DNA of 64,000 nt. It comes from Stutzerimonas xanthomarina (GTDB taxonomy: Bacteria; Pseudomonadota; Gammaproteobacteria; Pseudomonadales; Pseudomonadaceae). Positions 5,942-8,105 of this stretch are shown piece after piece (position 1 is the first letter of the stretch; every line of letters begins with the position of its first letter). The DNA is taken from positions 62,001 to 126,000 of the forward strand of contig NZ_RHQM01000009.1 in NCBI RefSeq assembly GCF_003935375.1, written 5' to 3'. The position numbers and the translations under genes are program-made. Below the pieces are notes generated by a model that ran no database searches, was not told the origin of the DNA, and saw nothing but the letters and a program-made list of their open reading frames with translations.

Positions 5942-6143
5942 GCGTACTCCCTCAGCGGTCTTGGATGAATTCAGGAGCGCCGAGTGTCGATCAGGCGCCG
6001 GAACCCGACAACCAACCGCCCGGAAATGAATGCCAGTGCATAAGAGTCGGGGATGGGCTGCTCCGACGCCAATGTTCTGAACGTTTTTTATTCATACCGC
6101 CGACAGCCGTGCCATCACTGGCCCGGCGGCGTATTTGCCCAAA

Positions 6144-6178
6144 CAACTCACAGCGTTATCCACAGCCATCGTGGATAA
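6144..6178 (+). repeat. DnaA-box module A
   Basis: A 35-bp module with three 9-mer positions. The middle site at 6156-6164 is a perfect TTATCCACA. The inverted site at 6170-6178 reads TTATCCACG on minus. The first position at 6144-6152 keeps only the CACA core. Spacing of the three positions (0, +12, +26) is identical to modules B, C and D. Confidence 0.75.
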
Positions 6179-6342
6179 CTGATGCGATCACTACCATCGT
6201 GAAACGGCACCGCACACATTGCCTATGAACGTGCGAGGCCTTCTGTTATGCGGCCTGTGGTCGCATCAAGCGGGACTGAGCAAAAAACGCACATACTGCT
6301 GGAAGTCCCGCGCCGCTTCGCCTGGAGCAGACCTTCCCAAGG

Positions 6343-6377
6343 TTATCCACAGAACCGCACACAACTATCGGGGATAA
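6343..6377 (+). repeat. DnaA-box module B
   Basis: The first position, 6343-6351, is a perfect TTATCCACA. The middle position at 6355-6363 keeps only CACA. The inverted position at 6369-6377 reads TTATCCCCG on minus, with two mismatches. Same 0, +12, +26 layout as the other modules. Confidence 0.7.
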
Positions 6378-6485
6378 ATGAAGCGGCAAATAGCGCAAGA
6401 GCTATCACGGCAATGTCGAGAATCTAAGAGCGCCGGGAGCGCCCTGTTCTTAGCATGAGCGCATCAACCGACGGAGAGATCTTCC

Positions 6486-6563
6486 ATGTCCAGTCGCAAT
6501 CTGCTCGAGAGCCTGTTTGCCAATTACGCGTGCGCCAGCGGAGGTGCATTGAACGGCCGCTGA
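6486..6563 (+). CDS. possible 25-residue peptide
   Basis: An ATG at 6486 opens a 25-codon frame (starting MSSRNLLESLFANYACASGG) ending at TGA 6561-6563. A purine-rich GGAGAG lies about seven bases upstream at a normal ribosome-site distance. It sits between DnaA-box module B and the LOG gene, 72 bases before the LOG start. No family is recognised. It could be a leader peptide, a small protein or chance. Confidence 0.3.
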   Translation: MSSRNLLESLFANYACASGGALNGR

Positions 6564-6635
6564 CATCACCCAGCACGCTTGGCCGTTCGTCCATGCCCGC
6601 GTACCCTTCCGCCAGCCCTAAGAGCGGAGTTAACG

Positions 6636-7223
6636 ATGACCTTGCGTTCCATTTGCGTTTTCTGCGGCGCCAGCCGTGGTTCGAACCCCATCTATGAACA
6701 AGCAGCCCAGGATCTCGGCCGCACCCTCGCGGCCAACGGCATCCGGCTGATCTACGGCGGCGGCGCCGTCGGCCTGATGGGGGTCGTGGCAGACGCCACC
6801 ATGGCTGCCGGCGGCGAGGTGATCGGCATCATTCCGCAGAGCCTGAAAGATGCCGAGGTCGGCCACACCGGCCTCACTCGGCTGGAAGTAGTCGACGGCA
6901 TGCACGCCCGCAAGGCGCGGATGGCAGAGCTCGCGGATGCCTTCATCGCTTTACCTGGCGGACTGGGTACGCTGGAGGAGCTTTTCGAGGTCTGGACCTG
7001 GGGTCAGCTTGGCTATCACCCCAAACCGCTCGGGTTGCTGGACGTCAACCACTTCTACAGCAAGCTCAGTCATTTCCTCGATCACCTCGTCGAAGAGGGA
7101 TTCGTCCGCTCCCAGCACCGCGAGATGTTGCAACGTAGTGACGAGTCGCAGGCGCTCATAGAGTTGCTGGATGCCTGGCAACCGCCTACTCATAGTCGCT
7201 GGGCCAAAAATTCGCCGCTGTGA
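6636..7223 (+). CDS. LOG family protein (cytokinin riboside 5'-monophosphate phosphoribohydrolase type)
   Basis: A 195-residue Rossmann-like protein. GGG at residues 41-43 ([11 protein letters not shown]) and the LOG signature PGGLGTLEE at 107-115 are present. Family members cleave nucleoside 5'-monophosphates to free base and ribose 5-phosphate; in plants and some microbes this releases active cytokinins, while the bacterial role is usually nucleotide salvage. Cytosolic, no signal peptide. The ATG at 6636 has GGAG nine bases upstream; an in-frame ATG at 6579 lacks one. The gene is bracketed by two DnaA-box modules on each side, so its expression could be influenced by DnaA, which is inference. 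Confidence 0.9.
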
Positions 7224-7305
7224 TCTGGCTGAATCCAGCTGATCAAATTTCACTCTCCGAGCTGTAGCCCACGCATCAAGCGGGCCGCAGCTCTGCCTCC
7301 CCATG

Positions 7306-7340
7306 TTATCCACATGCGCATCCACAGCAAAAGTGGATAA
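7306..7340 (+). repeat. DnaA-box module C
   Basis: The best-formed module. 7306-7314 is a perfect TTATCCACA, the middle site 7318-7326 is GCATCCACA (7 of 9), and the inverted site 7332-7340 reads TTATCCACT on minus (8 of 9). Confidence 0.8.
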
Positions 7341-7477
7341 GCGCTCGCTTCGACCTGTTGTGTTACGCATGTGCGGGCAATACGACGTTTTAGAAGCCTT
7401 GAACCTGCGAACGTACAATTTTCGATCAATAGGCTCGATCGCTAGTGCCGCTAGGGCTGTAGCAAGCAGCTAAATGG

Positions 7478-7512
7478 TTATCCACAACTCGGCCCACAGA
7501 TGTAGTGGATAA
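7478..7512 (+). repeat. DnaA-box module D
   Basis: 7478-7486 is a perfect TTATCCACA, the middle position 7490-7498 keeps CCCACA, and the inverted site 7504-7512 reads TTATCCACT on minus. Same internal spacing as module C, 172 bases downstream of it. Confidence 0.78.
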
Positions 7513-7628
7513 GGTAGCCGAACGAATCGAACGCGCTGGACTCAACAAAAGCATCGCTCGTCTAATTCCTAGGCTTACACCATGGGTGCATCAACAAGGC
7601 TTCAATCGCTGCATCAGGGCAGACGTCC

Positions 7629-8105
7629 ATGAGCTGGCTGGCCCTGACACTGGTGGCGTTCGTCATCTTCGTGCTGGTCTTCTTCGTCAAGAACCGGCAG
7701 CTCAACCATCCCGCGCTGCAATATCCCTATCGCCTCAAGGCGCCACTATTCTCGCCAGCGGAACGCGAGCTGCTGGAAATGCTGCAACGCACGGTCGGCG
7801 AGCGCTATCTGATCTTCCCGAAGGTAAGCGTCGCCGACGTTGTGGAAGTCACCGCCATCGCCCGACGGGCGTACTGGTACCGCGCCACCAACCGCATCGC
7901 GGCCACGCGCTTCGATTTCGTGCTGTGCGACAGGGCCGATCTTCAGCCGGTCTGCGTCATCAACCTGCATGACCCGGACACCGATGAGGAATTCATGGAT
8001 CGACTGTGCGAGACGATCGGGTTACCGCAGGTCCGCCTGCCAGCGGATGCAGCGCGCTCCTATAGCGATGTCCGGGAAGCCATCGAGTCGGCACTGCAGC
8101 CCTGA
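7629..8105 (+). CDS. DUF2726 domain protein, membrane anchored
   Basis: A 158-residue protein with one N-terminal membrane segment (residues about 3-20) followed by a soluble domain. The segment FSPAERELLEMLQRTVGERYLIFPKV and the later RFDFVLCDRADLQPVCVINLHD are typical of DUF2726, a domain with a nuclease-like fold resemblance but no settled function. The final part (LCETIGLPQVRLPA) fits the same family. The ribosome site before the ATG at 7629 is weak. It follows DnaA-box module D by about 120 bases. No operon partner is obvious; the next gene starts 118 bases later. Confidence 0.78.
   Translation: MSWLALTLVAFVIFVLVFFVKNRQLNHPALQYPYRLKAPLFSPAERELLEMLQRTVGERYLIFPKVSVADVVEVTAIARRAYWYRATNRIAATRFDFVLCDRADLQPVCVINLHDPDTDEEFMDRLCETIGLPQVRLPADAARSYSDVREAIESALQP

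Follow-up and report, generated by a model that had tools for sequence, protein, structure and literature searches.

Four modules of DnaA boxes around a LOG-family gene, located in the 64-kb stretch of DNA analysed here (the window), are probably DARS1-type units for DnaA reactivation, set in tandem and with related units in other Pseudomonadaceae. DARS1-like switches thus seem to come several in a row in Pseudomonas-type bacteria and to provide a compact, conserved and easily mutated element at a known place, on which DnaA recycling at DARS in these bacteria could be tested at once.

Geometry and conservation of the DnaA-box triad

The modules share the pattern CACA-N8-CACA-N8-GGATAA, which occurs four times in the window, each time over 35 bp and on the plus strand, with starts at positions 6144 (A), 6343 (B), 7306 (C) and 7478 (D). 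In each module, three boxes stand at 0 (box III), +12 (box II) and +26 (box I, inverted). The core of unit A (6144–6178) has a weak box III (CAACTCACA), box II TTATCCACA at 6156–6164, and an inverted box I with GTGGATAA at its end. The core of unit B (6343–6377) consists of box III TTATCCACA, box II CCGCACACA and inverted box I CGGGGATAA, while those of unit C (7306–7340) and unit D (7478–7512) both have box III TTATCCACA and inverted box I AGTGGATAA, with GCATCCACA and CGGCCCACA as their respective box II. Each module thus has one perfect TTATCCACA (at 6156 in A, and at 6343, 7306 and 7478 in B, C and D); the degenerate boxes are box II of B–D and box III of A, and box I is never a full match. 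These four 35-bp modules of one orientation, their starts, their 9-mers at 0, +12 and +26 (the third inverted) and the single perfect box in each had been proposed in the original prediction, and a rescan reproduced them to the base. The prediction also held that CACA is kept at both direct positions and GGATAA at the third, and every module pair is indeed identical at 14/14 of these positions.

The view that so fixed a geometry is unlikely to arise by chance, likewise part of the original prediction, was upheld by simulation and by the genome as a whole. The triad occurred in none of 2,000 simulated order-2 Markov windows of 64 kb, and the own genome (4.66 Mb in 45 contigs) contains six triads, four of them in the window, against none for the reversed control pattern. 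Moreover, a shifted-spacing control, with the first gap shortened from N8 to N7 and TTATCCACA written in full, yielded 0 matches at up to three mismatches. Taken alone, TTATNCACA is weak evidence, with four occurrences found versus 0.77 expected and four reached in 1 of 100 shuffles.

In relatives, the triad was present in all 56 genus genomes searched (a total of 274 matches, by our own addition; control 0) and in 227/298 genomes of the family (control matches in five genomes by our own count). It was also found in 157/369 genomes of a class sample (control in two) and in 73/299 genomes of a phylum sample (control in four), although a number of the phylum-sample triads without TTATCCACA look like chance matches. 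Two families of the latter sample (f210 and f214) have triads with TTATCCACA in genomes that are marked as belonging to the same phylum only, so the core may extend beyond the class. When both gaps were left free between 3 and 14 in 13 genus genomes, 56 of 70 matches (our own count) had the 8/8 spacing and the remaining 14 were spread over the other 143 spacings; the geometry itself therefore appears to be kept by selection. The module search in the own genome and in relatives that the original prediction had put forward as a check accordingly found the spacing conserved and the spacers diverging.

The loci considered below are a non-random choice from the matches listed in the genus, family, class and phylum searches, and were fetched as five sets of 20 regions each and one set of which 17 were used. 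Units with one or two mismatches were admitted at array loci by a box-quality rule, and single loci were restricted to exact triads. Since related sequences are not independent, counts of units and genomes overstate the number of events.

Besides the triad, another conserved DnaA-type site recurs at G000:C40:73531-73565 and at similar places in six other genus genomes; it consists of the inverted pair TTAATCCACAGAAGCTGTGGATAA, and its third gap differs from that of the triad.

Fis-like site, dyad and IHF-like site in the upstream flank

Each triad copy sits in a unit of about 100 bp that also holds, in fixed register, a Fis-like site at –65 and a dyad from –40 to –20. The original prediction had missed both elements, which lie upstream of all four triads. 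The Fis-like sites are GAACGTTTTTTATTC in unit A (6079–6093, i.e., –65 to –51), GAGCAAAAAACGCAC in unit B (6278–6292), GATCAAATTTCACTC in unit C (7241–7255) and GTACAATTTTCGATC in unit D (7413–7427), all on the plus strand and each with 5 of 6 consensus positions. The dyad blocks, also on the plus strand and in the –40 to –20 register, span 6104–6124 (A), 6303–6323 (B), 7266–7286 (C) and 7438–7458 (D).

The register was examined in an ungapped alignment of 72 array modules (from the window and 19 related loci), anchored on box III. In the –65 to –51 block, G is found at –65 in 66/72 modules, C or T at –62 in 66/72, A or G at –54 in 70/72 and C at –51 in 68/72. The block fits the Fis consensus GnnYAnnnnnTRnnC, as printed in PMC8682772, apart from position –55, where 35/72 modules have C in place of T.

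The flank blocks were subsequently counted over groups of loci, from which units with fewer than 110 bases upstream were dropped (locus L046, which is almost identical to the window, is part of the 72-unit alignment and stands outside the 68-unit Stutzerimonas count). A Fis-like site of at least 5/6 at –65/–66 was present in 59/68 Stutzerimonas array units, 45/59 other Pseudomonas array units, 14/20 single units with box II as the strong box, 12/12 Lon-linked units and 29/42 other gammaproteobacterial units (34 genomes), compared to 1.5–2.7% at control offsets. The dyad, scored with a matrix built from the Stutzerimonas array alone, ranked in the top 1% of the own locus in 44/59 other array units and in 18/20 box-II-strong singles, but was weak or absent in the Lon-linked (top 1% in only 2/12) and other gammaproteobacterial units (11/42). 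An IHF-like site (8–9 of 9 positions at –100 to –97) was observed in 16/20 box-II-strong singles, 23/42 other gammaproteobacterial units and 4/59 other array units, and in 0/68 Stutzerimonas array units and 0/12 Lon-linked units (control, 0–2.2%).

The possibility that the dyad forms a hairpin is disfavoured, as only 3 of 12 symmetric positions beat partner shuffles at P < 0.05 (best 0.013) among 127 related sequences. With at most slight covariation, the dyad is more readily explained as the site of a dimeric protein.

Comparison with E. coli DARS1, DARS2 and datA

The triad geometry of the window equals that of E. coli DARS1 (bioD-uvrB gap, NC_000913.3, ~813107–813141) with 0 mismatches, the minus strand of K-12 reading TAATACACA-TGG-TTATCCACA-GGAAT-AGTGGATAA. 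It equals that of the DARS2 core (rppH-mutH gap; TTCTTCACA-ACT-CTATCCACA-GAAAA-GGTGAATAA) with one mismatch. The box pairs of both sites agree with Table 1 of PMC11317965, and PMC5742627 describes boxes I–III as equally spaced in DARS1 and DARS2, with box I opposite to II and III. The window units possess this defining arrangement, i.e., three boxes, an opposed box I, and the DARS1/DARS2 spacing. By contrast, a triad with up to three mismatches was absent from the tested E. coli oriC/mioC, nrdA, datA and dnaA/dnaN stretches, so that, as judged from these loci, the triad is a mark of DARS and not of DnaA sites at large.

The likeness to DARS1 includes the accessory flank, in which the dyad lies at the same register. 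When a dyad matrix derived from 127 Pseudomonadaceae units was applied to the DARS1 flank, the expected register scored 14.9 (versus a mean of 11.0 for the units themselves), a value attained at a fraction of 4e-5 among 54,712 E. coli positions. Furthermore, DARS1 is described as 101 bp long with a stimulatory flank (PMC5742627, in part), and the stretch from –66 to +34 of a window unit also amounts to 101 bp by our own arithmetic, a likeness that concerns length. DARS1 differs from the array in comprising one unit instead of four, and its Fis block is unmatched at the register of the window units (rank 0.125).

To find DARS1-type loci elsewhere, the E. coli DARS1 region was used as a DNA query against the class sample, but since this gave mainly short core matches (in 57/369 genomes), such loci were taken from the phylum pattern search, where they were recognised by their core; 20 were fetched. 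Eight of these belong to one family (f193) and have cores equal or nearly equal to that of DARS1. BioD-like sequence was found in two of the 20 (L262 and L265, both f193) and UvrB-like sequence in one (L272, family f200); from the core and the BioD-like sequence in two of its eight loci, we infer that f193 represents enterics. The dyad was present at its register in 8/8 f193 loci (0.0006 of locus positions in seven and 0.0019 in one). An IHF-like site of 8–9 of 9 occurs at –99 in 6/8 of them, as opposed to 0/68 array units, and a Fis-like site of 5 of 6 in only 1/8, which together with the rank of 0.125 in DARS1 itself argues against the Fis part as a DARS1 trait. The 12 other fetched loci are poor in flank blocks (dyad in the top 1% in three, Fis-like 5 of 6 in one, IHF-like 8–9 of 9 at –98 in two), and this limits any claim of a class-wide flank. 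Queries with UvrB, BioD, MutH and RppH found no match in the gammaproteobacterial units fetched with ~400-bp flanks.

These comparisons lead to two predictions on E. coli DARS1. The first is the shared dyad, a flank block absent from the published DARS1 descriptions in the portions available. The second is an IHF-like site at –99, strong in 6/8 related loci and weak in K-12, where the sequence at this position (TAACCAGTTAAAA) matches the IHF consensus at 7 of 9 positions and is perhaps a decayed IHF site.

DARS2, the stronger of the E. coli sites, resembles the window units less in its flank: the dyad is unmatched at the DARS2 core (rank 0.22), and in our own scan its Fis-like and IHF-like sites fell at –125 and –87, respectively, versus the Fis-like site at –65 of the array. 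The DARS2 arrangement of IHF and Fis sites is therefore not found in the array units, 0/68 of which have the IHF-like site. The minus strand of the E. coli DARS2 stretch contains a second triad with one mismatch, 316 bp upstream of the core and in the same direction, which includes a perfect TTATCCACA that we take for box V; DARS2 may thus itself be a pair of units.

datA is a DnaA-box cluster with an IHF site that hydrolyses DnaA-ATP (boxes 2, 3, 7 and the IHF site). By the papers, it resembles the array in having clustered DnaA boxes away from oriC, but its 4.5-kb stretch lacks a triad at up to three mismatches (a comparison made by the triad). The array could in principle be a sink, datA-like or akin to the B. 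subtilis clusters, in which clustered boxes titrate DnaA without nucleotide exchange. That clustered boxes can titrate DnaA is a well-accepted concept (PMC12371093), and the locus does hold several DnaA boxes away from oriC, including a strong one per unit. Nevertheless, titration has no need for an inverted third box, a 5-bp gap, or a Fis-like site and dyad in fixed register, and two of the three boxes in each unit are degenerate, so that we regard a mere sink as unlikely. Of the DnaA-controlling locus suggested by the original prediction, the DARS part is consequently well supported (by triad geometry, kept spacing and the DARS1 flank dyad), whereas the datA part finds no support in the architecture.

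A DARS promotes the release of ADP from DnaA, which raises ATP-DnaA and brings initiation forward. According to PMC5742627, ADP-DnaA molecules bound to boxes I and II of a DARS come together head to head and release their ADP, and Fis is reported to activate DARS2 dependent on growth phase (PMC4245941 and PMC8682772, both in part). In the window units, boxes III and II (3 bp apart and in the same direction) would take a pair of DnaA molecules, and the inverted box I would hold a DnaA facing the box-II DnaA head to head. ADP-DnaA assembled on the units would drop its ADP and could rebind ATP, which would prepare the cell for its next round of initiation at oriC, while the flank (with the Fis-like site at –58 and the dyad at –30) would set the timing and strength of the unit. 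In this model, the binding of DnaA and Fis, the exchange of nucleotide, an additive effect of the units and a factor reading the dyad are all inferred.

The residues that the DARS papers name for DARS (R227, D269 and L290) are kept, together with the Arg finger R285, in 4/4 Stutzerimonas DnaAs compared, two of them apparently from a single strain. A fis gene scoring above its family cut-off is also present in the own genome. The locus can therefore be read as four DnaA-reactivating units, probably with growth coupling through Fis. In S. stutzeri RM2 (CP077641.1, ~1225588-1227023), the DnaA match is split into two overlapping pieces in different frames, attributable to either a sequencing error or a frameshift.

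Fujimitsu (2009) reportedly lists species with DARS-like sequences. PMC10380432 states, citing its reference 91, that DARS1- and DARS2-like sequences are conserved in many proteobacterial species, and DARS2 is reported in E. coli relatives by PMC4245941 and, including V. cholerae and Shewanella, by PMC8682772 (both in part). Among the papers listed by literature searches, none dealt with Pseudomonas DARS, with tandem DARS units or with Pseudomonas DnaA ChIP-seq, though other DARS papers may name Pseudomonas.

Genomic context of the units in Pseudomonadaceae

The LOG-family gene of the window (TIGR00730-type, named from annotated matches) lies on the plus strand at 6636–7223, between the unit pairs A-B and C-D. 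Between unit B and this gene is a conserved micro-ORF, MSSRNLLESLFANYACASGGALNGR (6486–6563, plus strand), which is part of the locus but not of the switch. Among the best 80 of 507 LOG relatives, 29 carry units by the box rule and 51 carry none; units are present in 26 of the 27 closest (20 of them named Stutzerimonas), the exception being S. kirkiae (L062), and in 3 of the 53 others. A plasmid search returned matches of the LOG-type coding sequence only.

In the Pseudomonadaceae, units recur in three kinds of loci, whose names DUF1232 and Lon-like are our own reading of translations. The DUF1232 kind is a single unit upstream of a DUF1232-like gene (L002 in the own genome), and in the Lon kind, a Lon-like protease gene is followed downstream by one unit or by two at a distance of ~510 bp (L001 in the own genome). 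The third kind is the array, with two to seven units at other Pseudomonas loci (six in L209, seven in L213). Some more single units (e.g., L189, L190 and L192) have neither a DUF1232-like nor a Lon-like neighbour. The single units have the triad and Fis-like site as in the array, but with box II as the strong box, and the DUF1232 kind mostly adds the IHF-like site, at –98 (16/20 box-II-strong singles, 13 of them DUF1232-linked). Related species with differing unit numbers provide a natural dose series for DnaA reactivation.

Since DnaA is also a transcription regulator (PMC11317965, in part), the modules might alternatively constitute a DnaA-controlled promoter region that times transcription of LOG, the micro-ORF or neighbouring genes. 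A motif scan found the micro-ORF upstream of LOG in 69/80 named LOG loci, and it also stands beside the LOG-less arrays L207 and L217, as this reading might expect. However, the 51 unit-less LOG loci mentioned above speak against it, and among 12 other arrays fetched, LOG was found within 10–12 kb in four (L208, L209, L212 and L216) and was missing from the stretch fetched in eight. Moreover, units C and D are downstream of LOG, and the same unit type adjoins unrelated genes (DUF1232, Lon-like). Timing of transcription is therefore an improbable reading, more so than titration.

The micro-ORF itself encodes ~20–45 aa with a core of LLxSLLAAYACGASG or LFANYA, lies ~150 bp upstream of LOG in L066–L118, and also adjoins array L211, which like L207 and L217 has no LOG in the stretch fetched. 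Its codons vary at third positions, and it looks like an unannotated small protein.

Clustered DnaA boxes could also belong to an alternative or cryptic replication origin, but we give this hardly any credence, as none of the usual oriC traits (dnaA, dnaN and rpmH nearby, an AT-rich unwinding element, a skew switch) was found. In agreement with the original prediction, which had set aside the usual oriC by gene context, E. coli DnaA, DnaN and RpmH had no tblastn match in the window (E 1e-3). GC skew has no clear switch around the locus, the most AT-rich 30 bp of 5942–7629 reach only 67% AT, and complete genomes of relatives place dnaA roughly half a replichore from the locus. A recently spread REP-like repeat, conserved by copying and not by function, is just as improbable: the copies are several per genome and in places tandem, but any two of the 101-bp window units are identical at only 26–44 of 87 positions outside the triad, and the distinctive form of unit A, in which box III is weak and box II strong, persists in L039–L052, both of which point to old vertical inheritance.

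As to the position of the DARS1-like units, the distance from dnaA to the array amounts to 43–52% of the half-chromosome in seven genomes of known length, with arrays on either arm, and to 44–48% in four more with rounded lengths. The DUF1232 kind is found at 62–78% (six genomes, three assigned by core sequence only) and the Lon kind at 30–45% (six genomes, two by core only). E. coli DARS2 and DARS1 are at 41% and 66%, respectively, a parallel that is weak evidence because origin-centred inversions keep distances without selection.

Finally, and with somewhat less than even confidence, we propose that DARS1 could be one of the descendants of a composite element with the order IHF(–98)-Fis(–66)-dyad(–30)-boxes III, II, I, which is distributed across the gammaproteobacteria. 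Several such loci would have been kept in the Pseudomonadaceae, where the IHF-less form would have been amplified at a GDPD-LOG locus into the main DnaA-reactivation hub of two to seven units, and the dyad would be the site of a DARS factor that acts at E. coli DARS1 as well. By our own reading, the translation of the gene that lies upstream of the array in both L209 and L213 resembles a glycerophosphodiester phosphodiesterase (GDPD), so GDPD-array-LOG may be the old order.
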